A stretch of DNA of 24,902 nucleotides from a virus. The notes under the pieces are model-generated. The model saw only the letters and a list, made by a program, of their open reading frames with translations. It was not told the origin of the DNA and did not search any database. The DNA lies in IMG/VR virus record IMGVR_UViG_3300030419_002355, positions 1 through 24,902 of that record. The stretch is one strand, 5' to 3'. Positions 2,961-24,902 of the stretch are shown one piece after another. Numbering within the stretch: position 1 is the stretch's first letter; every line of letters starts with the position of its first letter. The translations under genes were made by a program, and so were the position numbers.

Positions 2961-5012
2961 TTAGCTAGCCTTATACATGTAAGCCCACTTAGATGTAGCT
3001 CCGTCGATTAAATCGAGGAATCCAATTCTTTGAGATGCAACAAGCACTCTTCTTTGGTTTGCTACTTCGTAGTCTGATTCAACAGTCATACCTCTAAGTC
3101 TAGGTACTACATAGTTTCTTGGGTTAACAGCGATTGCTGCAAACTTACTAACTGCAGGTGTAGCAAATTCGTCACATAATAGTACTCTTGAACCGAATAC
3201 TTGACCAATTTCACCTTTCAGTTTAGTTGCCATGTCGCCAACTAAGTTAGCATCTTGGAACTCAGAATCTTCTAGTAAGTTATAGTAAACTGTTTGTGAA
3301 ACAATATAAACTACTTCACTTGGGTTTACACCATATTTACCCATGTTCTTTCTCAACGCTAATAATTCAGCTGCTGTAACAGTATCACTTGCAAATGCAG
3401 TTGATGACTGTGTATAGTCTGAATCATTTCTTGCTAAGTGTAAAAGACCTTCAAAAGAAGCTCCGCCAGTACCGAAGGCACCATCAGCGTCATCACCAGC
3501 TAGGATAGCATTTTCTACTGCTCTAGCATGTGAACGAATCATGGATTCTCTAATTAAAGGTAGAATCGGCATGATTGCATCTTCTTCAGTCTCGTTACCT
3601 AAGTAAGATTGTGAGATAAGTTTTTTGGTTGAAAGAGTTCTTTCAGTAAGGTCTATACCACCATATGCTGAGCCATAAGTGTCACCTCTCTCGGCTAAGT
3701 TACCGTGAGGGCTAGAACCTGTAGCTGTTTGGTTGCCAGTAAACTCGGCATAACCACTATCTGGTAGGATAGGAATTATCATATTAGCTGCATTCATAGG
3801 AATTTCTCTAAATAGAGGTGCTAATACTAACTCATTCTGAATGTCTCTTTCAATGTTAGTTGAAACAACTTGCTCAAAGTCTGCTGAAGAAACGCCAACA
3901 CCTGAATGTGCGTTAACTTTTTCCATTACACCTTTAGCATAGTCAGTATCCCAACCTTTACCAGTTGCAAGACCAGCAAATTTTGCGTCAACTATATCGT
4001 TTTCGAAAGCTTTCTTCCAGTCACCTTGACCCTGTCTGTCTGAGAAAATTCTTTTTGATTCTCTGATATTCATGATTTCTTCAGATTTTTCCACTAGTTG
4101 AGCTTCTAACTCTTTAACTACTGTCTCTAAATCTTCATGTTTCTCATTGACTCTTTTCTCAACATCTTCTACGAGTCTTTCGGCGCCTGATAATCCAACT
4201 TGAACGATTTTCTTCTGTTCTTCCTGTTTAGCTTCTTGAGCAGCCTTTTCTTCAGCTTCTACTTCTGCTGCTTTTTCAGCGGCTTCAGCTTCTACTTTTT
4301 CTTGTGCTGCTTTTTGCTCTGCTTGTTTCATAGCAATAGAAGTTGCAGTTTTTTCCGCTACATCTTTCGCAAATGATTCTAAGTCAAAGCTTTCTGCTTC
4401 AGGAGATAGTTTTTCTTCTGACATATCAGTCTCCATTAATGAGGACTTCTCCTCGCTTGGCTGCTCAATTTTAACAGCGTCTGCTGCTGCAGTTGAGTTA
4501 GCCTTTACAAATTCACGCTTGAATTGATTGTATTCTTCCATACTATCAAATGACTTTGCTACAGAGAAAGTTGCTCCCTGATTGCAAGGTACTGATACTA
4601 CAGATACTTCAAATAATTCTGCGTCCTTGATTTTATATCCGTCAGTTTCTTTCATATAATCAGCGTCCTTGACCTTGAAACCAACGGAAAAGGCTCCAAG
4701 AACGCCATCTTTAATTAAGTCGGTTACTTCACCAGCAGCTTTAGATATACGCGCTGTAATATCTAGTCCGCCTTCTGTAACCTCTAAATCTTTTGCTCTA
4801 CCTATAGGTCTGTCATAATTATGATTGAACAAAATAATTGGATTATTTTTAAAGTTATTTAATCCGCCTGATTTTGTCCAAGCATCTGGTTCTATTATAT
4901 CTCCAGCTCTATCTAGTGCATTTGTACTTGCAGAACCTTTAATATCTAGTCCACCATCATCAGTTTCTATAGATTTAAAAGTATTAGTCCAGTGAAAAAT
5001 TTTCTCACTCAT
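2961..5012 (-). CDS. fused prohead protease - scaffold - HK97-type major capsid protein
   Basis: One 683-residue frame carries three parts. Residues 1-155 are an HK97-type prohead protease (U35 family): NHNYDRPIG holds candidate catalytic His64, GAFSVGF holds Ser109, and the family element ELFEVSVVSVPCNQGA is at 132-147. Residues 195-320 form an Ala/Glu/Lys-rich coiled coil, equivalent to the delta/scaffold domain. Residues 325-683 are the HK97 gp5-like shell protein. A cleavage point near 320-345 would release the mature shell subunit. Protease and capsid are separate genes in HK97, but fusions are known. Two in-frame ATGs at 4436 and 4424 have Shine-Dalgarno-like sequences and could give a protease-free scaffold-capsid product. 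The first codon overlaps the preceding small gene by 8 bases. Confidence 0.9.
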   Translation of the reverse strand: MSEKIFHWTNTFKSIETDDGGLDIKGSASTNALDRAGDIIEPDAWTKSGGLNNFKNNPIILFNHNYDRPIGRAKDLEVTEGGLDITARISKAAGEVTDLIKDGVLGAFSVGFKVKDADYMKETDGYKIKDAELFEVSVVSVPCNQGATFSVAKSFDSMEEYNQFKREFVKANSTAAADAVKIEQPSEEKSSLMETDMSEEKLSPEAESFDLESFAKDVAEKTATSIAMKQAEQKAAQEKVEAEAAEKAAEVEAEEKAAQEAKQEEQKKIVQVGLSGAERLVEDVEKRVNEKHEDLETVVKELEAQLVEKSEEIMNIRESKRIFSDRQGQGDWKKAFENDIVDAKFAGLATGKGWDTDYAKGVMEKVNAHSGVGVSSADFEQVVSTNIERDIQNELVLAPLFREIPMNAANMIIPILPDSGYAEFTGNQTATGSSPHGNLAERGDTYGSAYGGIDLTERTLSTKKLISQSYLGNETEEDAIMPILPLIRESMIRSHARAVENAILAGDDADGAFGTGGASFEGLLHLARNDSDYTQSSTAFASDTVTAAELLALRKNMGKYGVNPSEVVYIVSQTVYYNLLEDSEFQDANLVGDMATKLKGEIGQVFGSRVLLCDEFATPAVSKFAAIAVNPRNYVVPRLRGMTVESDYEVANQRRVLVASQRIGFLDLIDGATSKWAYMYKAS

Positions 5013-10831: not shown

Positions 10832-12622
10832 CTATTTTCGTATGGTATAGATTTTGACAGGTTCAGACTTACCTTTTACAGTTACCTCGTCTAAAAAGTC
10901 GTAGTCATAACCATCAACTAAACTGTACTCAGAAATAATTAATCCTGTATCGTACTCTTTACAACTGCTCTCTAGCCTAGCAGCCAAATTGACGCTATCA
11001 CCAAGCACACTGTAATCGAAACGACTATTACTACCAAAGTTTCCGACGACACAGAGTCCGGTATTGATACCTGCACCTGTGTGAATCTCGTCCAGTCCTT
11101 CTTCTTTAAGTTTTTCATTTAATTCCTCCAACGATTCCCTCATTTCTAGAACCGCTTTAGTTGCATTCTCTTTATGATTCTCATCTTCAAGAGGCGCGCC
11201 CCAAAACGCCATAATACAGTCTCCCATATATTTATCTATTGTACCCCCGTGTTTCATAATTATCTCAGTCTGATTAGTTAAAAAACGATTAATCAGATTA
11301 GTAAGTCCTTGTGGATTCTTCTGGTATTTTTCAGAGATGGGGGTAAATCCTCGTATGTCAGAAAATAAGAAAGTTAGTTGTTTCGTCGACCCACCCAATT
11401 CAAGTAAATTTGGGTTTTTTTGTAATTTTTCAACCAAGTCCCTAGATACATATGTCCCAAATTGTTGTTTAATTTGTAAACGCATGAAATACTGCTGGAG
11501 AAAATTCCTGAAAGTTACAATACTCCAAAACAAAATCGAGATGATTACGATTCCAGAGATGTCCAATAAATAGGAAGATTGATAAGCATACCAGGTACCA
11601 TAAGATAGTCCACCAATAATTGCTAATAGAGTAGGTAAACTAACATATATCCAACCTGCAGTAATTAGAATAAGGAGCAAAGCCAGGACTGCAGCTCCTA
11701 GCTCCGCTGAAACAGCCCAATCTGGTGTAGAAGGGGCTGTACCTTCTATAAGGTTATGTAGTACATTCGCCTGTATCTCATGAGGATATTTTGGTCCTGC
11801 AGGTGTCGGTACTGGGTTAACTACTCCCTCTGCTGTTACTCCTATTATAATAAAAGGAGCTTCAATAGGGTTTCTTAAAAATTCTGCTGCTGTTTGTTTG
11901 TAGAACTTTGTATTCCAGTTAAGATATATTCTCCCATTTGGGTCTGTATTCATTTCTGGATATGCTGGTACTCTAACCCATTCTACTCCTGTTTCATTAG
12001 TACGAATTTGATAACTAATATCATCTACTGCAAGTCTAAGCATTTCTAGTGCAAAACTTGGATATAGTTTATCTTGAACATTAACTACTAGAGGTATTCT
12101 TCTGGTTACTCCATCGATTTCGGGACTTGCTGTAATTAATCCAACCCCATCAGCTGTTGTAGAGAGCATGGGTTCTTGTTTTAAAAGTCCAGGATAGTTA
12201 AAAAGCCACGGAAGTGGGTCTTCTCCAATTTGGGCAGTCCCTATGTGAGGGCCTTGTGTAGTTACTTGACTTGAAGCTGCGTATGCAAGTACTGCTTTTC
12301 TTTCCATAAAAGCATCTGCTAATTCAATATCGTTTTCAGCTCCTCGAATGTCTGGATTAGGCATTAGTACCGTAATACCTGAAACCCCGTGTGTCCTTTC
12401 TACTAGAGTTGCATATAATTCTCTAGGTAATGGATATCCGTTATATGCATCAATGATTTCCTCATCTAAATCAATGATTAAGATATTCTCGTTTTGAACT
12501 TCCTCAGTATTCATTATTAAATAATCAAATACTTTTAATTCTAGTATTTTAAAAGGATAGGGATTCCAGGCCAGTAATAAAACGAAGCCTATTGCTAGTA
12601 GTGCGTTAGTTAGTGTTTTCAA
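10832..12622 (-). CDS. CHASE2-domain class III adenylate/guanylate cyclase
   Basis: The 596-residue membrane protein has a signal anchor (1-20), a periplasmic CHASE2 sensor (about 25-300), two to three membrane spans (about 303-370) and a cytoplasmic class III cyclase domain (about 412-596). Catalytic features are intact: metal-binding Asp422 (FSDIRGFT) and Asp468 (DKYMGD), purine-contacting Lys464 with Ser538, and transition-state Asn545/Arg549 in GDSVNLAARLES. The Lys/Ser pair favours ATP as substrate, so cAMP is the likely product. Translation probably starts at TTG 12622, preceded by AAGGA at good spacing, right after the curlin gene stop. CHASE2 cyclases are typical of bacteria; one in a phage late operon is unusual. 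Next to FecR and curli genes it may signal secretion or surface state. Confidence 0.92.
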   Translation of the reverse strand: MKTLTNALLAIGFVLLLAWNPYPFKILELKVFDYLIMNTEEVQNENILIIDLDEEIIDAYNGYPLPRELYATLVERTHGVSGITVLMPNPDIRGAENDIELADAFMERKAVLAYAASSQVTTQGPHIGTAQIGEDPLPWLFNYPGLLKQEPMLSTTADGVGLITASPEIDGVTRRIPLVVNVQDKLYPSFALEMLRLAVDDISYQIRTNETGVEWVRVPAYPEMNTDPNGRIYLNWNTKFYKQTAAEFLRNPIEAPFIIIGVTAEGVVNPVPTPAGPKYPHEIQANVLHNLIEGTAPSTPDWAVSAELGAAVLALLLILITAGWIYVSLPTLLAIIGGLSYGTWYAYQSSYLLDISGIVIISILFWSIVTFRNFLQQYFMRLQIKQQFGTYVSRDLVEKLQKNPNLLELGGSTKQLTFLFSDIRGFTPISEKYQKNPQGLTNLINRFLTNQTEIIMKHGGTIDKYMGDCIMAFWGAPLEDENHKENATKAVLEMRESLEELNEKLKEEGLDEIHTGAGINTGLCVVGNFGSNSRFDYSVLGDSVNLAARLESSCKEYDTGLIISEYSLVDGYDYDFLDEVTVKGKSEPVKIYTIRK

Positions 12623-13435
12623 TTAATTTCCTTGTGTTACAGTAATATTACAACCGCCAGTAGTTATACAGTTCTGGCTTAGTGTGTAGTTTTGAGTAGT
12701 GTTTCCTCTTTGTAATAAGTCTAAAATAGTCGGCTGACTACCATTAAGTGTGATGGTGGCATTGTGTTCGCCATTGTTTTTCTGACTAATACTGACTTCA
12801 TTGTCGTCATTATAAATATAAAGTGTTAATTCTTTGTCTCCGTTCTGCATTTGCTTTACAAAAACATCATTATTATCTGCATATATAAACGCTTTAATAC
12901 TGTGGTTTATAGAACTGCTATCTTGTTTTTGACTTCCTTTGAATTCATTATCATCTCCATGAATATCTAACTGTACGAAGTTTCCCCCAGGCTCAGTTCC
13001 ATCATAATTCCAATTTGGAGTTAAACTATTACCATTTTCATATCCTTGACCAAAAACAACCTTATTTTCGTCTCCCCAAACATGCATTTGGAAGTCGTTT
13101 TCATTACAACTAGAAGCAGAGCATTTTTGTTTAATTGTCAGTTCATTACCTAAACCATCTACATCACCACCCCAATTATAACCAGACCCCCATATATCAG
13201 TATACCCAATATAATTATTATTTCCATATTGGAATAAATCTAAAGTATTATCATCATGATTGAAGGAGAATCTTATTAAATTATTATGTCCTACTTGGTC
13301 AATTTCAAGACTAAAATTGTCTCCACTTTGTACTTGGTCAATATGTACATGGTTATCGTCTGCTTGTAGCTGTTCGCCAAAAACGAATATTACTACAATA
13401 AATAATATTAAAGCACTTTTTAAAAATTTAATCAT
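12623..13435 (-). CDS. secreted curlin-repeat protein (CsgA/CsgB-like)
   Basis: The 270-residue protein begins with a signal peptide (IKFLKSALILFIVVIFVFG, cleaved near EQLQA). It then has repeated short strands with the curlin pattern IxQxGxxN: HIDQVQSGDNF, EIDQVGHNNL, DLFQYGNNNY, later VSISQKNNGEHN and LDLLQRGNTTQN. Such repeats stack into a beta solenoid and polymerise as amyloid in E. coli curli. Repeats here are separated by irregular acidic segments with Cys pairs. The ATG at 13435 is chosen because the signal peptide begins there and it overlaps the upstream stop as TAATG. It probably leaves the cell through the CsgG pore encoded nearby. Confidence 0.82.
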   Translation of the reverse strand: MIKFLKSALILFIVVIFVFGEQLQADDNHVHIDQVQSGDNFSLEIDQVGHNNLIRFSFNHDDNTLDLFQYGNNNYIGYTDIWGSGYNWGGDVDGLGNELTIKQKCSASSCNENDFQMHVWGDENKVVFGQGYENGNSLTPNWNYDGTEPGGNFVQLDIHGDDNEFKGSQKQDSSSINHSIKAFIYADNNDVFVKQMQNGDKELTLYIYNDDNEVSISQKNNGEHNATITLNGSQPTILDLLQRGNTTQNYTLSQNCITTGGCNITVTQGN

Positions 13436-13599
13436 TATGTTATCCAACAGACTGGGTATACACACCAATAAGGATTAGCAAATCCTAAAAACCATAGAAT
13501 TAGTATCCATAGCGGTATCTGTATCCAAGTCTTCCCTTTAGACCACTCTCTAAATCTTAGAGCATATGGAGCTAGTTTATTAAATAATTTTATTACCAT
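13435..13599 (-). CDS. 54-residue membrane protein
   Basis: The peptide has an N-terminal amphipathic basic part (VIKLFNKLAPYALRFREW) and one hydrophobic Trp-rich span (IQIPLWILILWFLGFA), then a short Cys-containing tail (YWCVYPVCWIT). The stop overlaps the curlin start (TAATG) and the start overlaps the upstream stop by 7 bases, so it is embedded in the operon. It may assist export of the neighbouring curlins. Family not recognised. Confidence 0.65.
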   Translation of the reverse strand: MVIKLFNKLAPYALRFREWSKGKTWIQIPLWILILWFLGFANPYWCVYPVCWIT

Positions 13600-13892
13600 T
13601 TTACTTTATTTGCCCAATAAGCTGCGGACATTTTTCCTTTCTTTATGTTCTTTGCGTGACGAGCCTTAAATGAGGCTCTACGCTTTTTCTGGGCGGCTGA
13701 TTTAGGAGACTTTCCTGCTCCCTTGACTCCTTGTTGTCCAAATCTAATAGTCTTTGTTCTTTTGCCTACTTTTGCGACTACTACATGAGATTTAGTTTTA
13801 TGTTTTGGAGTTCTTTTTGGTTTATTATATCCAGATACTCCAGCTCTCTTAAGTTTACCGTTTCTTTTCTTTCTAGCTCTTTTTCTTGCCAT
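13593..13892 (-). CDS. conserved-type basic phage protein (DUF5872-like)
   Basis: The 99-residue protein is Lys/Arg-rich. It carries the ordered elements GYNKPKRTPKHKTKSHVVV, KTIRFGQQGVKG, RRASFKARHAKNIKKGKMS and AAYWANKVKW. I associate this pattern with a small basic family in marine phages, from memory as DUF5872; the name needs checking. The ATG at 13892 is preferred to one at 13937, since GGGG lies upstream and the longer start would run inside the 28-residue gene. Nucleic acid binding is likely from charge. Confidence 0.75.
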   Translation of the reverse strand: MARKRARKKRNGKLKRAGVSGYNKPKRTPKHKTKSHVVVAKVGKRTKTIRFGQQGVKGAGKSPKSAAQKKRRASFKARHAKNIKKGKMSAAYWANKVKW

Positions 13893-13959
13893 GTTTCTTT
13901 CCCCTTTTCTTCTTAGGTCGTCCTCGACGCTTTCCATATGTTCCTTTACCTTTTGGCAT
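13873..13959 (-). CDS. 28-residue AT-hook-like peptide
   Basis: The peptide is MPKGKGTYGKRRGRPKKKRG followed by a Lys-rich tail. RRGRPKKKRG matches the AT-hook core (RGRP flanked by basic residues), which inserts in the minor groove of AT-rich DNA. A perfect AGGAGG lies four bases before the ATG, one of the strongest ribosome sites in the window. It overlaps the next gene by 20 bases. DNA binding is inferred from the motif. Confidence 0.65.
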   Translation of the reverse strand: MPKGKGTYGKRRGRPKKKRGKKHGKKKS

Positions 13960-13967
13960 ATTTCCTC

Positions 13968-15083
13968 CTAATTAGTCTGTCGTATGATTATACTAATAGA
14001 CTCTCCATCACCTGTTGTGATTATACTTTCTTTTTCATCAGTTATAGTCTGAATTCGAGCATTGGCATCTATAGGCAGTTTAATACTGATTATACCAGTA
14101 ACTTGTCTATAAAACCAAATTTGTCCACTATCATCAATTATAGTATTATATTGAGTTTGTGGGTCAAGTCCTGGTTTTGTTCCTTCAATAGAAACTTGTT
14201 CAAAACCACCACTATCTCTGTTTCTATCAAGTAAGTCTGATTCCTCTATGATTTCTAGTAAGTCTTGTAAAAAGTCTACATCTAATAAATCAATGTCTAA
14301 TTCTGAGAAACTCCAATCTTTATCTTCTTCTAAGTAATCAGTTTCTAATTCATTAAATTCTAGAAAATCTGCAGTTAGTATATTACTTGCACTATTTTCA
14401 GTTCTTACTTCCTCTACTGCTGTTTGTATTTCTGCTGGAGGAGATACAATAAATAAGTTATCAATTTGTGCTACAGTAACATCAGTTAATTGTACAGGTT
14501 TTACAGGGGGACTTGATATAGTTGATACCATAGTAGCCTGAAACGCCTGATTTAAAGTAACTGTACCGCCTTCATTTGTTACTGTTATCTCTCCAGAAGC
14601 GTCTCCATTTGCATCAGGTAAGAGAATTATTAGTGACCTTCCTAATTCATCAATTGTAGTAGTAAAGTCTGTTCCTCTAATTCCTATTTGTGCAGTAGGA
14701 GTTTCGATAGTAATATTTGCTTTGTTCATGTTAGCAGACATACCAGAGGTAAATCGTGCTGTTCCCATAGCAAACTTCATTACCATCTTTGATTTAGATG
14801 GATTAGGGTCATAAATTACTTCGTCAATTAAAACCCTGCTATGTTCGGTTAAACGGAGATTTGAGTCATCAAGAAATTCTACTTTCATTCGTCCGTTGCC
14901 TGTGTTAAGCAAGTCATATAATAATACATCTTGGTCAACTGCGGCAACGAACTCCTGATTATTTCGTGTAAGTGCGCCTTTACCCGTCTGTTCCGTAATA
15001 TCACCAATAGGATTGGCTAATGCTAAACTAGGTACTAGACTAATCGCTAGTATCTTTTTGATTAATTGTAATCGTCGCATCAT
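13968..15083 (-). CDS. secreted FecR-domain protein
   Basis: The protein of about 371 residues begins with a basic signal peptide (RRLQLIKKILAISLVPSLALA). A FecR domain follows: TEQTGKGALTRNNQ, VKVEF-like strand LDDSNLRLTEHSRVLID, the family signature TPTAQIGIRGTDF, then LITVTN-type strands. The C-terminal half is acidic with DLLDVDFL-like repeats. FecR proteins read an outer membrane receptor state and pass it to a sigma factor. A stand-alone periplasmic FecR, without an anti-sigma N-terminus, is common next to CHASE2 cyclases. The start region overlaps the upstream curlin gene by about 44 bases, with no strong ribosome site, so the exact ATG (15083 or 15080) is uncertain. Confidence 0.85.
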   Translation of the reverse strand: MMRRLQLIKKILAISLVPSLALANPIGDITEQTGKGALTRNNQEFVAAVDQDVLLYDLLNTGNGRMKVEFLDDSNLRLTEHSRVLIDEVIYDPNPSKSKMVMKFAMGTARFTSGMSANMNKANITIETPTAQIGIRGTDFTTTIDELGRSLIILLPDANGDASGEITVTNEGGTVTLNQAFQATMVSTISSPPVKPVQLTDVTVAQIDNLFIVSPPAEIQTAVEEVRTENSASNILTADFLEFNELETDYLEEDKDWSFSELDIDLLDVDFLQDLLEIIEESDLLDRNRDSGGFEQVSIEGTKPGLDPQTQYNTIIDDSGQIWFYRQVTGIISIKLPIDANARIQTITDEKESIITTGDGESISIIIRQTN

Positions 15084-15756
15084 CTGAAGTAATATCAAGA
15101 TTAATCACACCTGAACAAGAAGTAACACCCTGAGGGCAGCTTCCTGACTGCTGTATAATATCAATATCTGCATCGTCCCCGTTAAACTCTGCTATTAGGA
15201 TTTGGTCCTCATCTTTTTGTTGAGTATTAATGTTATTACCGTCACCAGTAATATCCCATTCCCATTTAACACTATCTGCATCTACTAATGTAGTAAATAT
15301 ATTAGTACCTCCAGTAAGAGTTAAATCATAGTTAAAGCTTTCGGAAGATTGGTTATACCCCAAATCAAAGTCCCACTCATTTGAATCCCCTGTAACATCT
15401 AAATCTAAGTCCAGACTATCTGCAGAGCCAGTATATCCAATGTTCCAATCAAATATGTTACTGTCCCCTGTAAATACCATGTCTATATTAGCTGAGTCTA
15501 ATACGATAGGTCCAAATAATTGGTTACTATTTCCTATTTGGTCTAAATTAAAGGTTATGTCACTACCTGTGATTTCCATATCAGTAGCACAAGCTCCTGA
15601 TGCAATAGTTCCACAAAATTTGTTTCCATAACCTATCTGGTCAATTGTCAAAGTCAAAGTATCACCCTCTTGTTCAAGAAAAATCTCGTTATCGGTTGAT
15701 TGTGCGAAAATTGACACAGAAAGGAAAAGTGCAAATATAGTTAAATATTTATTCAC
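15040..15756 (-). CDS. secreted curlin-like repeat protein 2
   Basis: The 238-residue protein has a signal peptide (NKYLTIFALFLSVSIFAQS). Curlin-like strands follow: LTIDQIGYGNKF, FNLDQIGNSNQL, NINTQQKDEDQ, IDIIQQSG and ITINQKD. Between them are Asp/Ser-rich units of the form DLDVTGDSNEWDFDLGY. GTG at 15756 is chosen: GGGAG lies six bases upstream and the signal peptide begins there. It overlaps the csgG stop by 8 bases. Being directly after csgG, it is the most likely secreted substrate. Its Cys pairs could form disulphides. It is longer and more acidic than E. coli CsgA. Confidence 0.8.
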   Translation of the reverse strand: MNKYLTIFALFLSVSIFAQSTDNEIFLEQEGDTLTLTIDQIGYGNKFCGTIASGACATDMEITGSDITFNLDQIGNSNQLFGPIVLDSANIDMVFTGDSNIFDWNIGYTGSADSLDLDLDVTGDSNEWDFDLGYNQSSESFNYDLTLTGGTNIFTTLVDADSVKWEWDITGDGNNINTQQKDEDQILIAEFNGDDADIDIIQQSGSCPQGVTSCSGVINLDITSDDATITINQKDTSD

Positions 15757-16618
15757 TATTTTCTCCCTTATGCTCTTGGATATTCCAAAAGCCTCTTTCG
15801 TCACCTTGATAAATAAAGGCGACAACTGCAGCTTCAATCGCTGCACGGGTTGCAACAGTAACGCTTTCGTTCTCCGCAACTCCGTCTTCTATTTCTACTA
15901 GTTGAGTATCCATATCGACAAATTTAAATACATCGAAACCTCCACCAACTGATAGAATAGTCTTCTTGGCCTGAACATTTAACAAAATTTCTCCTGTTAA
16001 AGTGCTTATGCCCCTTAGACTTACTGTGACCACATCTCGTCTATATTGAGTTGACCTGCCCACCCCTAAAGTCCTTGCTCCTCGTCCGCCAGATTCTATA
16101 TTAGAGTCATATCCTATGATACCACCTTCTATAATTATTCCTGCGAAGAGTAGTGGCTGTATGCCTTTGTTCTCTGTTTCATCGCTTTCCTCTCTAGTAC
16201 TTCTAACAATTTGTCTTTCTCGTACTAGATGGTCTATTTGAGCTCTTTCAACTACACGGAACCATGTTCCATTTCCTGCAGTTTTTAAAGCATCAATAAG
16301 TAATTCTGTTCCACCTTGGGTTACTGCAGTACTAAAGTCTGCTAAATTATCTCTACGCTTTCTTTGTCCAGTTAAATCATTAAATCCATAAACTGCAACT
16401 ATTGGCATTTTTTCCGCTGGGGGTAAATTTAATAGTCTTTCGTAAGTAGGAAGTTCAACTATCTCTGGTCCTTCAACACAGGTAAATGGAATTGCCTTTT
16501 CAACCATAGTTTTTACATCAACTATGTCAGGGTCACAATTAGTGTCGTCCCTATCCATTCTAGGAACGCTTGCACACCCCGCTATTAAAAATACTAGCAA
16601 AATGGCTAGTAGCCTCAT
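15749..16618 (-). CDS. csgG: CsgG-family curli secretion lipoprotein
   Basis: The 289-residue outer membrane lipoprotein has a lipobox (LIAGC, lipidated Cys15). CsgG signatures are clear: ADFSTAVTQGGTELLIDAL, WFRVVERAQIDHLVRERQIVR, IIIEGGIIGYDSN, YRRDVVTVSLRGISTLTGEILLNV and TRAAIEAAVVAF. In E. coli nine copies form a pore for curli subunits, with a constriction of Tyr51, Asn55 and Phe56. Here Phe56 is kept (Phe95), but the Tyr and Asn positions align with acidic Asp90 and Asp94, so the channel may suit a different substrate. A strong GGAGG lies six bases before the ATG, which overlaps the csgF stop (TAATG). Confidence 0.92.
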   Translation of the reverse strand: MRLLAILLVFLIAGCASVPRMDRDDTNCDPDIVDVKTMVEKAIPFTCVEGPEIVELPTYERLLNLPPAEKMPIVAVYGFNDLTGQRKRRDNLADFSTAVTQGGTELLIDALKTAGNGTWFRVVERAQIDHLVRERQIVRSTREESDETENKGIQPLLFAGIIIEGGIIGYDSNIESGGRGARTLGVGRSTQYRRDVVTVSLRGISTLTGEILLNVQAKKTILSVGGGFDVFKFVDMDTQLVEIEDGVAENESVTVATRAAIEAAVVAFIYQGDERGFWNIQEHKGENSE

Positions 16619-17100
16619 TAGAATCCTCCAGTACCGATTGGGATTGTGATTACTGTTTCACTTCCCTCGCTGTCAGTTATAGTCATGATTATAACTTCTA
16701 CACATACTCCATCTTCCCCGCATTGCTCGGTTCTTTGATAGGTAATAGTATTCCCTTCTAGGGTAAATGAGCCTGAATAACTAGACTCTTCATTTCCGAA
16801 CATATTATCTACTAATTGTTTTGATAATTGTGCGTATATTCTTGATTCTAAGTTTCGAATGAACTTAGCTAAAGTTGTATTTTCTAATGCTCTCTGTTCA
16901 GCTTTTAGTGCTGCTTCGATGTCATCTTGTAATTTATCTCGTCTTGATTTTTCTTGGTTTTCAATCGTTAAATAGTGAGCAGAAGTACCTACTCCACTAA
17001 AAGACGGATTTTTGAATTCGTGTGTAATTTCGTCGCTTAAGACTAATGGTGTAAAGAAGAAGATAATTGCTATCCATCTACTTGTCTCTTTTCTTTTCAT
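16618..17100 (-). CDS. csgF: CsgF-like curli assembly factor
   Basis: The 160-residue protein has a signal peptide (about 1-22). Its mature N-terminus, HEFKNPSFSGVG, matches the CsgF element FRNPNFGGN that threads into the CsgG pore. A helical part (LAKFIRNLESRIYAQLSKQLVDNM) and C-terminal strands (FTLEGNTITYQ, EVIIMTITD, TVITIPIGTGGF) follow, as in CsgF. It caps CsgG and links secretion to nucleation on the cell surface. It immediately precedes csgG. There is no CsgE or CsgB-type dedicated nucleator in the window. Confidence 0.85.
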   Translation of the reverse strand: MKRKETSRWIAIIFFFTPLVLSDEITHEFKNPSFSGVGTSAHYLTIENQEKSRRDKLQDDIEAALKAEQRALENTTLAKFIRNLESRIYAQLSKQLVDNMFGNEESSYSGSFTLEGNTITYQRTEQCGEDGVCVEVIIMTITDSEGSETVITIPIGTGGF

Positions 17101-17329: not shown

Positions 17330-17606
17330 CTAACCTACCGTCCTCGATAAAATTTTCAGCTCTCGCAATTCTGTCTAAATCTGGTGTAAGTTCGAGAGCT
17401 GCGCTTACACTAGTGTCTAATCTAATTATGTCATTGTTCATAGTTTTCACACGAGTGATAAGACTATTCGCAAATCCTTCAAGTGTCTTTACTTGCCCAA
17501 CTACTCCACTCATTATTTGCTTCATAATTGTAAAAATAAAAACACCTGCTACCAGGGCTCCAGCTATAGGGGCACCTACTTGTGCTATTAAGTTCCAAAT
17601 ATCCAT
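17313..17606 (-). CDS. small membrane protein, BhlA/holin-like (paralogue 2)
   Basis: The 97-residue protein has an N-terminal span (QVGAPIAGALVAGVFIFTIM) and a coiled segment (ITRVKTMNNDIIRLDTSVSAAL). It aligns with its downstream neighbour along both parts, with MNNDIIRL matching LDNDMIRL. It starts at TAATG with iscA and overlaps paralogue 1 by 17 bases. Two similar one-span proteins may form a hetero-oligomer, as holin/antiholin pairs do; this is inference. Confidence 0.65.
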   Translation of the reverse strand: MDIWNLIAQVGAPIAGALVAGVFIFTIMKQIMSGVVGQVKTLEGFANSLITRVKTMNNDIIRLDTSVSAALELTPDLDRIARAENFIEDGRLDVRRD

Positions 17607-17923
17607 TAGAATCCTACACTGACACCACAGCCACAGCTTGCCTGTTCTTGTGGATTAATAAACTTAAACTGTTCATTAACTCCATCAACAACCCAATCTA
17701 TTGTCATACCTTGTATATAAGGGCCTGACACCGGGTCTATATTAAATTTAATTTCGCCATAATCGATAACAAAATCATTTTCTTTTGGTTCTTTACAGTA
17801 GTCAAATATATACTCATATCCAGCACAGCCACCGCCAGTTAATCCTATTCTAAAAGCATAGGTTTTCTCACGGGAGGCTCTTTCTACTAATTTGGAATAA
17901 GCTTCATTTGTTACTTCAATCAT
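17606..17923 (-). CDS. A-type iron-sulfur carrier protein (IscA/ErpA family)
   Basis: The 105-residue protein has the three conserved Cys of A-type carriers: Cys33 in TGGGCAGYEY and Cys97/Cys99 in SCGCG near the C-terminus. The fold strands (FRIGLTGGG, FNIDPVSGPYIQGMTIDWV) are intact. It accepts Fe-S clusters from IscU or passes them to apo-proteins. The ATG at 17923 is used because the upstream TTG would lie deep in iscU. It overlaps iscU by 8 bases, as in a real Isc operon. Cyanophages carry A-type proteins, but pairing with IscU is rarer. Confidence 0.9.
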   Translation of the reverse strand: MIEVTNEAYSKLVERASREKTYAFRIGLTGGGCAGYEYIFDYCKEPKENDFVIDYGEIKFNIDPVSGPYIQGMTIDWVVDGVNEQFKFINPQEQASCGCGVSVGF

Positions 17924-18317
17924 TCTGTTTTCGTTCCCAATCAAGTATTGCTTCTCTTATAGCTGATTCAGCTAGTACTGAGCAGTGCAATTTAATTGGA
18001 GGCAATTGCAATGCTTCTGCAATTTCTTTGTCTTTTATTTCTCTAGCCTCTGCTAAAGTTCTGCCTTTTAGCATATCGACGAACATTGTGGAACTCGCGA
18101 TTGCTGAACCACAACCATATGTTTTGAACTTAACATCTTCTATAATTTCGTCTTTGTTAAGTTTAATCTGAAGTCTCATGACATCACCACACGCTGGTGC
18201 TCCTACTTGTCCAGTAGCTACAGCGGGGTCTTTAGGGTCAAATCTACCTACGGAAAATTGTCCGGGAGCGTTTAGTACTTCTTCGAATCTTTTTACGACC
18301 TCTTTGCTATATGCCAT
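17916..18317 (-). CDS. iscU: IscU Fe-S cluster scaffold
   Basis: The 133-residue scaffold has all ligand residues: Cys43 with Asp45 (GAPACGDV), Cys69 (TYGCGSAIASS), His111 and Cys112 (LHCSVLAE). The LPPIK at 105-109 matches the LPPVK motif recognised by the HscA chaperone. It begins MAYSKEVVKRFE. It should build a cluster from host IscS sulfur and hand it to the IscA-like protein next door. Length is typical. No IscS, HscA or HscB is in this window, so host partners would be needed. Confidence 0.93.
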   Translation of the reverse strand: MAYSKEVVKRFEEVLNAPGQFSVGRFDPKDPAVATGQVGAPACGDVMRLQIKLNKDEIIEDVKFKTYGCGSAIASSTMFVDMLKGRTLAEAREIKDKEIAEALQLPPIKLHCSVLAESAIREAILDWERKQND

Positions 18318-18505
18318 TAAACCTTCTTAATTCCTAGGACATAGTTCTCAGCAGCACTTTCTGCATAGTCTTCACTATGTCCGATATATTTCTCTTCTCC
18401 GATTTTTTCGCCATGTTTATTGTAAAATATTGCTCCAAAATCTCCTTTGTCTATAAATGTTTCTGCGACTAAGTCTCCTTCTCTAAAGCTGCTAAGTATT
18501 GTCAT
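18317..18505 (-). CDS. hypothetical small protein
   Basis: The 62-residue protein has a strand-rich part (GDLVAETFIDKGDFGAIFYN, EEKYIGHSEDYAES) and an end ENYVLGIKKV. Similar small proteins occur near structural genes of marine phages, but I know no function. It overlaps the TerS-like gene as ATGA and abuts iscU directly. Confidence 0.65.
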   Translation of the reverse strand: MTILSSFREGDLVAETFIDKGDFGAIFYNKHGEKIGEEKYIGHSEDYAESAAENYVLGIKKV

Positions 18506-18963
18506 TCTTCTTTTAGTAATTTTTCCATGAGTTTGCCATAATTACCTTGTCCAAAAGGTAACTCTGAATTAATCTGGACATTATTCATGGTTTTAACATT
18601 AACCCCTTTAGCTTTTTCTAATTCAGCCATAGCCTTAATCTCGTCCATACGCATCTTATGTGCTAGTGCATATAAGTCTGCCAGGTCTTTATTAGTGTAT
18701 ATTTGACTTTCTTCTGCTTCTTCTAATTTCTTGTCAATAATTTCATCGAGTGCAGCAGATAGTTTAAATCTGTTACGATAACCAGTATCTAAATAAACCT
18801 GGTCTATGTACGCTTTGATTTCCCGTTTTCCTAAGTATTCTTGTACGGTATTTTCGTCAACACCCATCTTCGTGCATACCGCTGGGATATTCCCTAGTTC
18901 CAAATATGCGTTGGCTATTTCTAATCCTTCGGGACTCATTTTTGTCGCAATTTCATTCTTCAT
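18502..18963 (-). CDS. terminase small subunit-like protein
   Basis: The 153-residue protein has an N-terminal helix-turn-helix-like part (LEIANAYLELGNIPAVCTKMGVDENTVQEYL) and then a helical oligomer-like part (YIDQVYLDTGYRNRFKLSA, ALDEIIDKKLEEAEES). The C-terminus is QINSELPFGQGNYGKLMEKLL. This order fits small terminase subunits that bind packaging sites. It is the first gene of the leftward late operon, 10 kb from terL. The ATG lies six bases after TATAAT, so the message may be leaderless. The TerS call is by fold and context. Confidence 0.65.
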   Translation of the reverse strand: MKNEIATKMSPEGLEIANAYLELGNIPAVCTKMGVDENTVQEYLGKREIKAYIDQVYLDTGYRNRFKLSAALDEIIDKKLEEAEESQIYTNKDLADLYALAHKMRMDEIKAMAELEKAKGVNVKTMNNVQINSELPFGQGNYGKLMEKLLKEE

Positions 18964-19508: not shown

Positions 19509-19588
19509 TGGGTATTGAATGGGATTTACTAATTGGAATAATCGCTTTCAATACCTTAATTCTATATTTAATTTGGGGGGCAAGATGA
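19508..19588 (+). CDS. 26-residue transmembrane micropeptide
   Basis: The peptide MGIEWDLLIGIIAFNTLILY plus LIWGAR is almost wholly one membrane span. It starts in TAATG with the previous gene and ends in ATGA with the HAD gene, so the frame is fixed by both sides. The tight coupling supports a translated unit, though it may mainly link translation. Confidence 0.5.
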   Translation: MGIEWDLLIGIIAFNTLILYLIWGAR

Positions 19589-20073
19589 TAACAAGACTTT
19601 ACAATCCTAATCCTATAATCGCTATCTATGATTTAGATAACACAATCATTGATAGCGAACATAGGCAACTTTCAAATGATGATGGCTCAATCAATCTTGA
19701 ACATTGGTTTGAGAATTGCACAGAAGAAAAAATAAATAAAGATACATTACTGCCTTTATATAATAAATTGGTTAAGCAATATAAAGAGGGCAACACAATC
19801 ATTCTATGCACAGCTAGAAACATGGGTAAATATGATTATGAATATCTTTATAAAAATAATATTTGGCACGATAAAATCATATCAAGACCTAAAGACTGCA
19901 CAACTAAAGATTATATTTTAAAGGCACAACAATTAAAATATCTATTCAATCTAAAACAATATGCCAAGATACAAAAAGAATTTTATGACGATAATACCGA
20001 TAACCTAAAAGCATTATTCAAATTAGGGGCAAAGGTATTCAATGCCATAGAATTAAATGAGGAAATGAAATGA
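19585..20073 (+). CDS. HAD-superfamily phosphatase-like protein
   Basis: The 162-residue protein has HAD motifs in order: motif I YDLDNT with nucleophile Asp16 and Asp18, motif II Thr76 in IILCTAR, and motif IV acidic pair in YDDN (Asp135/Asp136). Such enzymes remove phosphate, for example 3'-phosphates from DNA or RNA (T4 PseT-like), or nucleotides. The ATG at 19585 follows GGGGGG at the right distance. Its end overlaps the PPK2 gene by 4 bases, so the two are probably made together. Substrate not predictable. Confidence 0.82.
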   Translation: MITRLYNPNPIIAIYDLDNTIIDSEHRQLSNDDGSINLEHWFENCTEEKINKDTLLPLYNKLVKQYKEGNTIILCTARNMGKYDYEYLYKNNIWHDKIISRPKDCTTKDYILKAQQLKYLFNLKQYAKIQKEFYDDNTDNLKALFKLGAKVFNAIELNEEMK

Positions 20074-20708
20074 ATGAATTAGAAATACAACAGGCACGAC
20101 TAAACCGAATATTAAAAAAGGATTTTGGAAAGGTTGCCGTTATCCTAGAGGGTAGAGATACTGCTGGAAAAACAGGAACAATCAGAACGCTAACACACTA
20201 TATGCCAATAGATAAATTCTCAATTCATCTATCCACTAAACCAAGCCAAGCAACAATGAATAATTGGTTTAGATTTTGGACAAATAAATTAGAAATGGCT
20301 AATAATAAAATGGTTATCTTTGATAGGTCATGGTATTCAAGGGGTTTAGTCCAAGCAATTAATGGGTGGTGTTCAGAGGAACAATATGCACACTTCATGG
20401 AAAATGTGCAATCATGGGAAGAAAAGAAAGAAGATATAAGATACATTAAATTTTGGTTATCCATATCAGAAGAAACACAAAAAAGACTAATTGAGAAAAG
20501 GGAAAATTCACCATTAACAAATTGGAAACTATCACCGAATGACAGACTTGCTCTATCCTACTTTGACAAAATGACTATCTACAAAGAAAGGGTAATTACT
20601 TCCACTAAATATTGGAATGTAATTGACTACAACGACAAAAAGAAAGGGCAACTAGAATTAATCACAACTTTAAATAACATATTAGAAAAGGGGTTAAAAA
20701 ATGACTAA
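20070..20708 (+). CDS. polyphosphate kinase 2 (PPK2) family protein
   Basis: The 212-residue protein matches the PPK2 P-loop fold. Walker A is LEGRDTAGKTG (GRD 28-30, Lys34). Walker B FDRSWYSRG is at 84-92. Lid elements follow: IKFWLSISEETQKRLIEKR and NWKLSPNDRLALSYFDKM, with the family triad WKLSPxD. PPK2 enzymes transfer phosphate between polyphosphate and nucleotides (ADP/GDP to ATP/GTP, or AMP to ADP). GKTG replaces the more usual GKGG. The protein is at the short end of the family but has all core elements. A PPK2 in a phage early operon is unusual and could raise NTP supply from host polyphosphate. It overlaps genes on both sides. Confidence 0.88.
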   Translation: MNELEIQQARLNRILKKDFGKVAVILEGRDTAGKTGTIRTLTHYMPIDKFSIHLSTKPSQATMNNWFRFWTNKLEMANNKMVIFDRSWYSRGLVQAINGWCSEEQYAHFMENVQSWEEKKEDIRYIKFWLSISEETQKRLIEKRENSPLTNWKLSPNDRLALSYFDKMTIYKERVITSTKYWNVIDYNDKKKGQLELITTLNNILEKGLKND

Positions 20709-20946
20709 ACAAATAGGACATAAAGAATTTATGAGATTAAGACATAAACTAGAAAAGAAAAGAACACAGATAAAAATTAACAAGGAAGAATGGATAGCCG
20801 ACTTGGGATCTGGTTATTTAATATCAGATATGACAAAGGAACAGGTAAGGATTTTTAAAAATTTTGAAAAGGCAATTAATTCCATTAATGCCAAAATAAG
20901 AACATTAAAGACTTGGGAAAAATCCCAAGATCTAAATGTAGGTTAA
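20701..20946 (+). CDS. hypothetical small protein
   Basis: The 81-residue, basic, helical protein (KEFMRLRHKLEKKRTQIKIN, QVRIFKNFEKAINSINAKI) has AAGGGG before its ATG. It overlaps the PPK2 gene by 8 bases. No motif recognised. Confidence 0.6.
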   Translation: MTKQIGHKEFMRLRHKLEKKRTQIKINKEEWIADLGSGYLISDMTKEQVRIFKNFEKAINSINAKIRTLKTWEKSQDLNVG

Positions 20947-20989: not shown

Positions 20990-21175
20990 ATGAATACTTT
21001 AAAAAAAGCGAATAAGCCGAAATTCTTTAAAGATGAAACCAAAGAACAAATGGTTAGAATTATTAGAGAGCAATCTGGCTTAAAACTTCCTGCACTTGTA
21101 AGAGCTACTAAAGATGATATAGAAGAACTTGCAAAGGCATTGGAAGTGAATGCAAATTATGAGGGTGGCAAATAA
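20990..21175 (+). CDS. hypothetical small protein
   Basis: The 61-residue protein starts MNTLKKANKPKFFKDETKEQ and has a helical middle (EQMVRIIREQSGLKLPALV, DDIEELAKALEV). AAAGGA lies upstream of the ATG. Its last base is shared with the next ATG (TAATG). Family not recognised. Confidence 0.6.
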   Translation: MNTLKKANKPKFFKDETKEQMVRIIREQSGLKLPALVRATKDDIEELAKALEVNANYEGGK

Positions 21176-22020
21176 TGTCACCTTCTAATTTGAATAATGT
21201 AGCGTGTGTGATAGATACAGAATGCACATACATATCAAGAACGCCCCGAATGGTTTATCATTTTGGGGCAACTATTGGTAATCTTGATAATGATAATAAA
21301 TTTGATGTGATAACAATGGATTATTATGTCAAAGAAATTATTGAAGATATTGGTATGTTTCTTCACACTAATTCTAAAGGGAATGATTATAGCTATAATA
21401 AAAATATGGCTCATTCTTGGAAAGACGCTATTAATAATCCACACAAGGTTAAATCTTGGAAAAGCATAATTAAGGAATGGAAAAAATTGATGAAAATTCA
21501 TAATGTTTCATATCTTACTTCATACAATTTCAATTTCGATCTTGGTGTGGGTGATAAAATTGGCACTATAAGGAAAACTCATTCCCAATTAACAGATGAA
21601 ACTTTTTATCTGCCTAGAGGGGTTGAGTATTTCTGCCTTATGGATATTTGTGCTAATCTTCTGATGAATAAACCATATTTCCATTGGTTAGATAATCTTT
21701 CAGATGAAGAACTTGCTCAAATGACTACTGAAAAAGGCAATAATAAATATTCTGCTGAAAGCGTGAATAGGTATATTAACAAAGACCTATGGTATGCTGA
21801 ACAGCACACAGCAAAAAGAGATAGTTTGCTTGAATATGGTATATTGCTCTATGTATGGAAAAAATATAAAGCAATCATTAAGAAAAATTTTGTTAATGAT
21901 GTTCGCTTTGTTCATTTCCTAGATGTAGCCACAGGGTTATCAACTGCCGAGAAAATGAGGAAAAGGTTGAATAAACCTATTCCTAAAAATTCTAAACAAA
22001 TGCAATTAAAGGGGGTATAA
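21175..22020 (+). CDS. DEDDh exonuclease-like protein
   Basis: The 281-residue protein has the acidic set of DnaQ-like 3'-5' exonucleases: Asp14/Glu16 in VIDTECTY, Asp122 in TSYNFNFDLGVG, and His211/Asp216 in HTAKRDSLLEYG. The spacing is the DEDDh subgroup. These enzymes remove nucleotides from 3' ends of DNA or RNA. In a phage early operon it may act in DNA repair, replication or host nucleic acid breakdown. No polymerase domain is present, so it is not a polymerase exonuclease segment. Confidence 0.75.
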   Translation: MSPSNLNNVACVIDTECTYISRTPRMVYHFGATIGNLDNDNKFDVITMDYYVKEIIEDIGMFLHTNSKGNDYSYNKNMAHSWKDAINNPHKVKSWKSIIKEWKKLMKIHNVSYLTSYNFNFDLGVGDKIGTIRKTHSQLTDETFYLPRGVEYFCLMDICANLLMNKPYFHWLDNLSDEELAQMTTEKGNNKYSAESVNRYINKDLWYAEQHTAKRDSLLEYGILLYVWKKYKAIIKKNFVNDVRFVHFLDVATGLSTAEKMRKRLNKPIPKNSKQMQLKGV

Positions 22021-23197: not shown

Positions 23198-23226
23198 ATT
23201 ATAGCAGAATTTTTCTCGTTTGTCAA
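23198..23226 (-). promoter_or_regulatory. consensus promoter for RNA B
   Basis: TTGACA, 17 bases, TATAAT on the minus strand, preceded by an A/T-rich TTTTTTCAAAAAATCTC. No gene lies downstream before the convergent operon's terminator. Confidence 0.85.
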
Positions 23227-23260
23227 GAGATTTTTTGAAAAAAATTGAATTATTTTCAGA

Positions 23261-23326
23261 TAAAAAAAATCCGACATTTGTTGCTTCAGACTTTTCCCTC
23301 ATCATACTACACAACATCTGTCGGAT
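23261..23326 (-). terminator. leftward intrinsic terminator
   Basis: Read on the minus strand, ATCCGACA and TGTCGGAT form an 8-bp stem extended inward by TGTTG/CAACA across a 2-base mismatch, with a 28-base loop. Eight Ts follow. It ends the transcript of the 49-residue gene and separates it from promoter B. Confidence 0.85.
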
Positions 23327-23413
23327 TAATTCGCTTTCGCTTCGTCAGTTTAGACACTTGTCGCGGGTGTGGTCAGAACTTTGAGTTATAAACGAGTTCT
23401 TGGCGTTCAGAAT

Positions 23414-23429
23414 TGTTCCATGTGGAACT
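23414..23429. promoter_or_regulatory. parS-like site 2
   Basis: TGTTCCATGTGGAACT shares 15 of 16 bases with site 1 at 19169, including the same TG centre where classical parS has CG. It touches the stop codon of the 49-residue gene. The region 23327-23413 otherwise holds no gene I can support. Confidence 0.55.
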
Positions 23430-23578
23430 TAAAGACTTAGCAATTTCTTGATGGTCACTTTGTTGCTTCTCTCTAGGCTATCAAGTTCGCCTTTGTTTAG
23501 AGAGAATTTTTCTTCAACTTGTCTGACCAATGCTACTTTAGTTAATTCAACTTTTTTAGTTTCTTTCACTTTTTGCAT
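23429..23578 (-). CDS. 49-residue protein in origin-like region
   Basis: The protein is MQKVKETKKVELTKVALVRQ, then a short helical part (EEKFSLNKGELDSLERSN) and TIKKLLSL. The SLNKGELDSL segment looks like a small helical turn of a DNA-binding protein, but this is a weak hint. AAGGAG nine bases upstream supports ATG 23578. An in-frame ATG at 23599 directly after TATAAT could give a leaderless longer form. It is the only gene in a 1.4-kb noncoding region, so a regulator of replication or the local RNAs is a fair guess. Confidence 0.55.
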   Translation of the reverse strand: MQKVKETKKVELTKVALVRQVEEKFSLNKGELDSLERSNKVTIKKLLSL

Positions 23579-23606
23579 TTTTTCGTTCTCCTTAATCATG
23601 TATATA

Positions 23607-23634
23607 ATTATACTGATTTTTTGTCCCATGTCAA
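23607..23634 (-). promoter_or_regulatory. promoter of the 49-residue gene
   Basis: TTGACA, a 16-base spacer and TATAAT. The ATG at 23599 lies seven bases after TATAAT. Confidence 0.8.
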
Positions 23635-23662
23635 TAGGAAAATCACATTTTTTGAAAAAAAC

Positions 23663-23682
23663 TTATCCACAGGTTATCCACA
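23663..23682. other. two DnaA boxes (right part of origin-like region)
   Basis: Exact TTATCCACA boxes at 23663-23671 and 23674-23682 (plus strand) are 11 bases apart. They lie between two tandem promoters that read toward the 49-residue gene, so DnaA could also control that gene. Confidence 0.7.
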
Positions 23683-23696
23683 GCCAAATCGCGCCG

Positions 23697-23725
23697 ATTA
23701 TACCACACTCTCCTAGATTTGTCAA
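23697..23725 (-). promoter_or_regulatory. second consensus promoter upstream of the 49-residue gene
   Basis: TTGACA, 17 bases, TATAAT on the minus strand. Its transcript would cross the two DnaA boxes before reaching the 49-residue gene. The adjacent 23726-23825 is AT-rich and holds no gene I can support. Confidence 0.82.
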
Positions 23726-23825
23726 GAGAAAATTTAAATTTTTTTCAACTTTTTATAAACTCGTGTCTTTTATCTATTTGATACCTTAAGTTATCGCTTT
23801 TTGCCCTATTTTTTCGCATTTTTCC

Positions 23826-23858
23826 TTAAAAATACCCGTATAAAGCGCTTTTGCGGGT
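23826..23858 (-). terminator. candidate terminator of RNA A
   Basis: On the minus strand ACCCG and CGGGT pair around an inner AAA-GCGC-TTT, followed by ATTTTT. It lies about 180 bases from the predicted start of RNA A. Confidence 0.5.
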
Positions 23859-23865
23859 GTTTGGG

Positions 23866-23976
23866 GCGCTTTGCGCCGACCAAAGTACAGTTTCGAAACG
23901 AAATATTTTACACCCGCGCCGAAGTGCGAATTCGAAGTACTAAAACGAAGTACCAAATCGAAGTGCTAAAGTGATG
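23866..23976. repeat. repeat module A (paralogue of 23004-23093)
   Basis: It has the same order as module B: GC hairpin GGCGC-TTT-GCGCC, AGTACAGTTTCGAAACGAA, ACA, CGCGCC, AGTGC and AAGTGATG. The 15-mer CAGTTTCGAAACGAA at 23888-23902 is identical to 23029-23043. Confidence 0.65.
23920..23971. repeat. four 13-bp iterons
   Basis: CGAAGTRC-NAAWN units repeat with an exact 13-base period; GAAGTRC starts at 23921, 23934, 23947 and 23960. Direct repeats next to DnaA boxes are typical of Rep-bound iterons, but no Rep gene is seen here. Confidence 0.75.
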
Positions 23977-24014
23977 AAAAACACCCGCAGCGGGTATATA
24001 ATTATCTTAATCAT

Positions 24015-24043
24015 ATTATATCAGAAGTTTTTGCGGGTGTCAA
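24015..24043 (-). promoter_or_regulatory. consensus promoter for RNA A
   Basis: TTGACA, 17 bases, TATAAT on the minus strand. The octamer ACACCCGC overlaps the -35 element. Confidence 0.83.
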
Positions 24044-24047
24044 GAAG

Positions 24048-24077
24048 AAATTTGAAGTAATTTGAAGAAATTTGCGT
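24048..24077. repeat. short AT-rich tandem repeat
   Basis: AATTTGAAGW repeats about three times with a 10-base period. It is AT-rich and upstream of the RNA A promoter, so it may act as an UP element or an unwinding element. The rest of 24078-24169 has no gene I can support. Confidence 0.45.
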
Positions 24078-24169
24078 TTTTGCGAAGGTTTGACACGAAG
24101 ATGTGAGGTTTCGCGTCCCGCCCCCCGAAGTTAGACTGTGATTTTTTCCTAGAAAATTCGAATTTTTTC

Positions 24170-24197
24170 TTGACATTTATGAAAAAAGCATTATAAT
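24170..24197 (+). promoter_or_regulatory. promoter for the 24206 gene
   Basis: TTGACA, 16-base spacer, TATAAT, then eight bases to the ATG at 24206. It has the same TTTTTTCTTGACA context as the other promoters. Confidence 0.85.
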
Positions 24198-24205
24198 ATA
24201 ACTAT

Positions 24206-24454
24206 ATGAAAAATCAAGAAAAGATTGAAATATACGAAGTAGAACTTACTGCTGAAGATGAGAGAGCAATCACAACCTATATTCAATGCAGAATTGCTGG
24301 TTTATCCAAAGAGAATGCATTGTTGATGATATTCCGATTGGAGTATTCACCAAGCATGGTCGTCTTTGAACTTATCGGCTCTGGAGAGATTGAAGAATGT
24401 GTTAGTGAACCTACAGAACATCTTCAAGATTTAGAAGAAATCACATTTCATTAA
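24206..24454 (+). CDS. hypothetical acidic small protein
   Basis: The 82-residue protein (MKNQEKIEIYEVELTAEDER, then a helix ALLMIFRLEY and VVFELIGSGEIEECV) is acidic and mixed alpha/beta. It has its own strong promoter, and the ATG lies eight bases after TATAAT with no ribosome site, so translation may be leaderless. Placed at the start of the next rightward unit, it is a candidate early protein such as an anti-host factor. Family not recognised. Confidence 0.65.
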   Translation: MKNQEKIEIYEVELTAEDERAITTYIQCRIAGLSKENALLMIFRLEYSPSMVVFELIGSGEIEECVSEPTEHLQDLEEITFH

Positions 24455-24472
24455 AATAATTCAATCTTTTTC

Positions 24473-24501
24473 TTGACAAAACAAGTCAAAGCATATATAA
24501 T
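24473..24501 (+). promoter_or_regulatory. consensus promoter for the last gene
   Basis: TTGACA, 17 bases, TATAAT on the plus strand. Transcription would start near 24508. Confidence 0.87.
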
Positions 24502-24663
24502 ATATGTATTATGAAAAAAGATAAAAGAAACAAGAATAAAGTGAGACATGGGTATAGATTACCCGAAAATTCAGCTTCATTCAACAAGTTTCTGGATTGC
24601 ATTGACTATCTAAATCATAAAAGAAATCAATTTTTTAACGCTATCAAAAACGGGAGTAAAGAA

Positions 24664-24902
24664 ATGGCACAAGCAAAAAATTACACAGACGAAATGGTCA
24701 GCGAAATGACCAAAAGATACACTGAATCTCCTACAAGAGAAACAGTTGACGCATTAGCACAAGACATGGGCAAAACTGTAAGAAGTATCATTGCCAAACT
24801 TTCAAGAGAAGGTGTCTATGTTGCTCAACCTAGAACTACTAAATCAGGCGAACCTGTAATCAGCAAATCTGAATTAGTTGCTCAAATCAATGAGCATTTT
24901 GG
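24664..24902 (+). CDS. HTH-type regulator-like protein, 3' end cut by window
   Basis: At least 79 residues are present, beginning MAQAKNYTDEMVSEMTKRY. The segment RETVDALAQDMGKTVRSIIA is a helix-turn-helix-like element, and KLSREGVYVAQPRTTKSGEP follows. This order is seen in small DNA-binding proteins of T4-like and other marine phages. ATG 24664 is chosen because GGGAG lies seven bases upstream. The frame is also open upstream to an ATG at 24511 (MKKDKRNKNKVRHGYRL...), nine bases after TATAAT, so a 51-residue extension is possible. Confidence 0.65.
   Translation, partial: MAQAKNYTDEMVSEMTKRYTESPTRETVDALAQDMGKTVRSIIAKLSREGVYVAQPRTTKSGEPVISKSELVAQINEHF

Follow-up and report, generated by a model that had tools for sequence, protein, structure and literature searches.

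The open reading frame at positions 20070..20708 (plus strand) of the viral DNA analysed here raises the question of what a polyphosphate kinase might do for a phage, and at which stage of infection. The window, that is, the whole stretch of 24,902 nucleotides that was analysed, is the IMG/VR virus record IMGVR_UViG_3300030419_002355. The frame starts with ATG and encodes 212 amino acids. An earlier note, made from the sequence alone, had assigned the product to the polyphosphate kinase 2 (PPK2) family, and this assignment is borne out: the PPK2 profile PF03976 matches at E 1.5e-41 (142.9 bits; cut-off 22.3) and aligns over positions 14–224 of its 229, so nearly the whole model is covered and a chance match is excluded. 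The motifs quoted in that note are all present, namely GRDTAGKTG (residues 28–36), FDRSWYSR (residues 84–91) and WKLSPND (residues 152–158), and the protein contains both family motifs, DTAGK and RSWY. The top NCBIfam match is TIGR03707 with 160.8 bits, which does not reach the equivalog cut-off of 301.8; the protein is thus not a typical representative of the P. aeruginosa type. A PHROG search with the window protein returned no family match.

The closest solved relatives by sequence are PA3455 (PDB code 3czp) and the PPK2 of Francisella tularensis (FtPPK2). An AlphaFold2 model of the window protein (mean pLDDT 83.9, pTM 0.82) has as its top Foldseek match FtPPK2 in complex with polyphosphate and nucleotide (PDB code 5llb, TM 0.84), and among the PDB matches listed for the model the best 50 are all polyphosphate kinases. 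The protein is therefore predicted to adopt the PPK2 fold with its lid. The alignment with FtPPK2 begins at residue 36 of the latter and spans the core, and the small size of the window protein is explained by the lack of an N-terminal extension together with a short C-terminus. Shortness had been proposed as a hint of changed specificity. It is not evidence for this. The virus relatives examined are mostly 202–216 amino acids long.

The Walker A motif (GRDTAGKT, residues 28–35; 20151..20174, plus strand) and the Walker B motif (FDRSWYS, residues 84–90; 20319..20339, plus strand) retain Asp30, Lys34, Asp85 and Arg86, which correspond, together with Arg144, to D62, K66, D117, R118 and R178 of FtPPK2. 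Alanine at K66, R118 or R178 of that enzyme lowers polyphosphate binding and activity (PMC8776046). Several basic residues of the proposed polyphosphate channel are altered in the phage clade, with Tyr in place of Ft H76, Thr or Lys at K184, and a variable residue at K229. The residue that follows the Walker B motif is class-specific, being Asn in class I, Gly in class II and Glu in class III (PMC8776046, PMC11641546). The window protein has Ser90 at this position, as do 80/80 phage relatives. The class I Asn is thus absent, and the protein has neither the signature nor the tree position of class II (Gly) or class III (Glu). Because the serine fits none of the three signatures, the preferred acceptor cannot be read from the sequence.

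The P-loop lysine is followed by Thr35, a position occupied by Ser or Thr in 80/80 phage relatives and by Gly in typical class I enzymes. The suggestion that the GKTG variant marks a changed specificity carries little weight, since GK[S/T] is common to the phage clade and a marine bacterial group; Ser90, at the class-signature site, would be the more telling substitution. A bacterial scan that picked sequences for such motifs, and whose frequencies are therefore biased, also shows Ser or Thr at both sites in SAR86, KB13 and OCS116; SAR202 and other bacteria have the serine at the signature position only. Ser90 was accordingly rejected as a phage-only mark. Loci L090–L099, L104 and L112, among others, are examples of SAR86, KB13 and OCS116 PPK2s that have Thr or Ser in the signature position.

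When the IMG/VR viral contigs were scanned with a single sequence as query, no relatives were found. With an alignment as query, relatives are encoded in 290 stretches, and with the phage alignment in 208; both counts include stretches beyond those examined, and the safe lower bound is at least 80. The best 80 of the 290 are 53–60% identical to the window PPK2. A maximum-likelihood tree with 85 rows groups the window protein with 17 representatives in a single clade (support 100/100) on a long stem of 1.48. The clade lies inside a wide class I branch together with the F. tularensis enzyme (100/100), apart from classes II and III, and its sister group (97/96) consists mostly of marine bacterial PPK2s with three huge-phage PPK2s. 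The phylogeny thus places the protein within PPK2 and not in another P-loop kinase family. Among close relatives in the clade the median dN/dS is 0.098 (137 pairs), which indicates purifying selection and a gene kept for its protein. An annotated phage collection contained no clade member, and its top hits were below 40% identity.

The remaining genes of the window identify the kind of phage that carries the gene. Blastp against T5 matches the large terminase subunit TerL (9e-140), the portal (1e-94), the capsid (2e-55) and the small terminase subunit TerS (3e-26), with the genes in T5 order; by these matches the phage is T5-like. The terS gene (18502..18963, minus strand; phrog_3802, 8e-37) is divergent from the PPK2 operon. 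A relative of 102.9 kb (G001, which holds locus L014) shares the gene order of the window, with 72–84% identity for most genes of head and packaging, and encodes a T5-like set comprising polymerase, primase, helicases, ligase halves, D2, D3, D5 and D10–D15. In the window, a single 683-residue open reading frame (2961-5012, minus strand) joins the prohead protease (Peptidase_S78) to the major capsid protein; the two are separate genes in T5.

Immediately upstream of the PPK2 gene, on the same strand, lies a homologue of T5 dmp, which encodes a deoxynucleoside-5'-monophosphatase with a HAD fold (19519..20073, plus strand; true start likely at 19585). It matches phrog_415, the family of T5 dmp, with 2.1e-22, and the T5 terminal-repeat copy by blastp with 4.8e-13. 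Its end overlaps the PPK2 start by four bases (ATGA), which suggests that the two genes form one operon. An 81-residue open reading frame that overlaps the PPK2 stop (20701..20946, plus strand) has no Pfam or PHROG family above cut-off and is probably part of the same operon. It is followed on the plus strand by a gene (20990..21175; cluster c1) for a small A2/D5-like DNA-binding protein, which has a counterpart in 76/81 loci; longer relatives of this protein have matches to phrog_323 and to phrog_1725, to which T5 A2 belongs. Next come a phrog_20187 protein, possibly a DnaQ-type exonuclease (21175..22020, plus strand), found near PPK2 in 27 loci, and an A2/D5-like DNA-binding protein truncated at the end of the window (24511..24902, plus strand; phrog_323, 5e-4; phrog_1725, 4e-3). 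Of the 40 loci with more than 4.5 kb upstream, 35 have the dmp homologue ahead of PPK2 in the same orientation, and 25 have a divergent terS. A MazG-like pyrophosphatase is encoded near PPK2 in 35/81 loci (e.g., L021:11585-12001), a further nucleotide-metabolism gene of this region.

The annotated terminal repeat of T5 contains dmp and A2, and this dmp-bearing repeat is the DNA that enters the cell first. The position of the window PPK2 and its dmp neighbour match this site of pre-early, first-transferred DNA. The description of the locus as a phage early operon accordingly holds as to its phage setting, and early timing is suggested by synteny and homology with T5 through the dmp homologue and the A2-like genes. 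Compared with the T5 pre-early region (dmp, A1, A2), the locus shares the dmp homologue, the small A2-like DNA-binding genes and the place next to terS. It differs in the presence of PPK2, in the failure to find the deoxynucleotide kinase gene dnk, and in the orientation of dmp, which lies on the opposite strand relative to terS. Neither A1 nor A2 was found by blastp in the 102.9-kb relative; A2-like genes were detected by profile only. Seven perfect (12-of-12) sigma-70 promoter matches occur in the window, six clustered at 23198-24501 on both strands and one at 18998-18970 (minus strand); the total of promoter-like sites is only slightly above that of shuffled sequences.

The reading that we favour, with confidence evenly divided between belief and doubt, is that the gene encodes a minimal PPK2 of a virus-only clade of T5-like phages, which is made early and moves host polyphosphate phosphate onto nucleotides. 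Polyphosphate-driven nucleotide phosphorylation is the most likely activity because the catalytic residues are kept, the predicted fold is that of PPK2 and the protein lies near class I. The enzyme would be produced early in infection, as its synteny suggests, and, in a host assumed to contain polyphosphate, would transfer phosphate from this store onto nucleotides. The acceptors would most likely be nucleoside diphosphates, as in class I, and may differ from these because the class-signature Asn is Ser. The products would be ATP and GTP or dNTP precursors, obtained without drawing on host metabolism.

A more specific role is conceivable, although we consider it unlikely: a PPK2-derived deoxynucleotide kinase could stand in place of T5 dnk and phosphorylate dNMPs or dNDPs, with polyphosphate or ATP as donor, to supply the synthesis of phage DNA. 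The dnk profile phrog_139 detects the gene in T5, used as a positive control, and in 0/10 PPK2-bearing records, one of which is the 102.9-kb relative with most T5 replication genes; a role of PPK2 in DNA precursor supply is therefore possible. The nearby nucleotide-metabolism genes (the dmp homologue, and MazG in the 35 loci), Ser90 in place of the class I Asn and the canonical-like GK[S/T] P-loop are consistent with such a role. However, the ten records may be incomplete, and dnk could have been exchanged for an unrecognised gene or its function supplied by the host. A search of the 102.9-kb relative for other kinases by a simple P-loop motif was set aside, as the dnk product of T5 does not itself match that motif. 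The polyphosphate-handling residues are, moreover, largely kept, and a concentration of clade-specific residues in the nucleotide pocket is unsupported: only 2 of the 14 clade-fixed differences fall in residues 85–101 (p 0.31). The full form of this proposal, in which an entire T5-like lineage swapped its dNMP kinase for a descendant of PPK2 that draws on host polyphosphate to make DNA precursors and is deployed with the first-injected genes, is decidedly speculative. If true, it would be a case of a virus paying for its replication with polyphosphate.

It is rather improbable that the protein is an ordinary class I NDP:polyphosphate phosphotransferase which the phage carries as cargo of host origin and which contributes nothing special to early takeover. 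The position of the clade inside the class I-wide branch agrees with this, and the same phages carry other host-like genes, the curli genes and NifU. By contrast, the long stem of the clade and its occurrence as a single group in virus contigs only indicate an old residence in phages and not a recent pick-up, and PPK2 keeps a stable place near dmp. The curli-like cluster lies between terS and terL (10832-17100, minus strand) and comprises CsgF (7.5e-14), CsgG (8.8e-47), FecR, a curlin-repeat protein, and CHASE2 with a nucleotide cyclase. It is collinear in the 102.9-kb relative at 39–76% identity, and is therefore phage cargo and not a chimera. Pelagimyophages are known to carry CsgF and CsgG but reportedly lack CsgA/B (PMC7029224); the cluster of the window, unlike these, includes a curlin-repeat protein. 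Genes for NifU_N and Fe-S_biosyn (IscA-like) proteins adjoin terS (17606-18317, minus strand), as they do in the 102.9-kb relative, and are possible phage iron–sulphur assembly genes.

The lid segment (residues 137–158; 20478..20543, plus strand) raises a question about the window copy itself, in which Leu140 and Gln194 could reduce or abolish an activity that other members of the clade may have. We regard this as very unlikely. Position 140 (Ft R174) is Arg in 80/80 siblings and in the compared bacterial PPK2s of all three classes, and Leu in the window only; position 194 (Ft R232) is Gln in the window and Arg in most sequences compared. The conserved PPK2 lid motif R-X2-3-R (PMC4748334) is present in 80/80 siblings, whereas the window has R139-X4-R144. 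Nevertheless, Arg139 adjoins the altered site, none of the catalytic residues Lys34, Arg86 and Arg144 is changed, the reading frame is uninterrupted and 61% identical to its nearest sibling, and Leu140 and Gln194 may be an assembly error. That PPK2 runs mainly in reverse, forming polyphosphate from host NTPs and thereby starving or signalling to the host, is extremely improbable, since most class I enzymes favour NDP phosphorylation and no feature of the window protein points there, even though synthesis is favoured by some class I enzymes (C. glutamicum, PA2428; PMC8776046).

The PPK2 of these T5-like phages can be compared with several known systems. Class I enzymes such as FtPPK2 and SMc02148 of S. 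meliloti share its fold, Walker A and B motifs, lid WKLSP, catalytic residues and wide tree branch; the phage clade differs in having Ser for Asn after DRSWY and GK[S/T] for GKG, in lacking the N-terminal extension, and in being viral with a long stem. The mostly marine bacterial PPK2s (SAR86, KB13, OCS116, SAR202) share the Ser/Thr signature and, in many cases, GK[S/T], and lie with the huge-phage copies on the sister side of the tree (97/96), but they are at most about 40% identical, longer, and encoded on bacterial chromosomes. The huge-phage PPK2s (LR745206, LR756501, LR756502) are likewise phage-borne, yet they are only 33–37% identical, possess an N-terminal domain and the Asn signature, and occupy a separate place in the tree.

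The virus-only PPK2 branch is large and previously unannotated. Li et al., cited in PMC13188868, reportedly studied virus-encoded polyphosphate kinases in 2025. In the open-access literature searched, we found no account of the clade, of its signature or of its location in T5-like phages. Both ppk1 and ppk2 on viral contigs have been listed as auxiliary metabolic genes from metagenomes, and the text consulted mentions neither a T5-like context or a clade nor a class signature or position (PMC9636769, PMC13188868). The view of the gene as an unusual phage auxiliary metabolic gene thus stands in part: virus-borne ppk2 is already known and the clade is common in virus contigs, whereas the clade and its genomic location appear to be new. 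Several hits labelled as phage in the public collection were rejected as bacterial DNA on their neighbour genes, namely the Mcat6 flank, MT835589, MT835605, Pseudomonas 'phage' Y15 and Acinetobacter MD-2021a. Phage-labelled PPK2 records with bacterial-looking neighbours such as xseA, dusA, purN, recC and ubiB include L003, L006, L007, L008 and L009. Such mislabelled records call for caution in surveys of auxiliary metabolic genes.

Viral use of polyphosphate has so far been deduced from scattered metagenome annotations. Here, it can be attached to a defined viral clade that is conserved, occupies a fixed position in the genome and shows a clear change at the class signature. The clade could yield compact polyphosphate-driven kinases with new acceptor specificity. 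It is open to direct expression and assay, and would tie the phosphate storage of the host to the first steps of infection.
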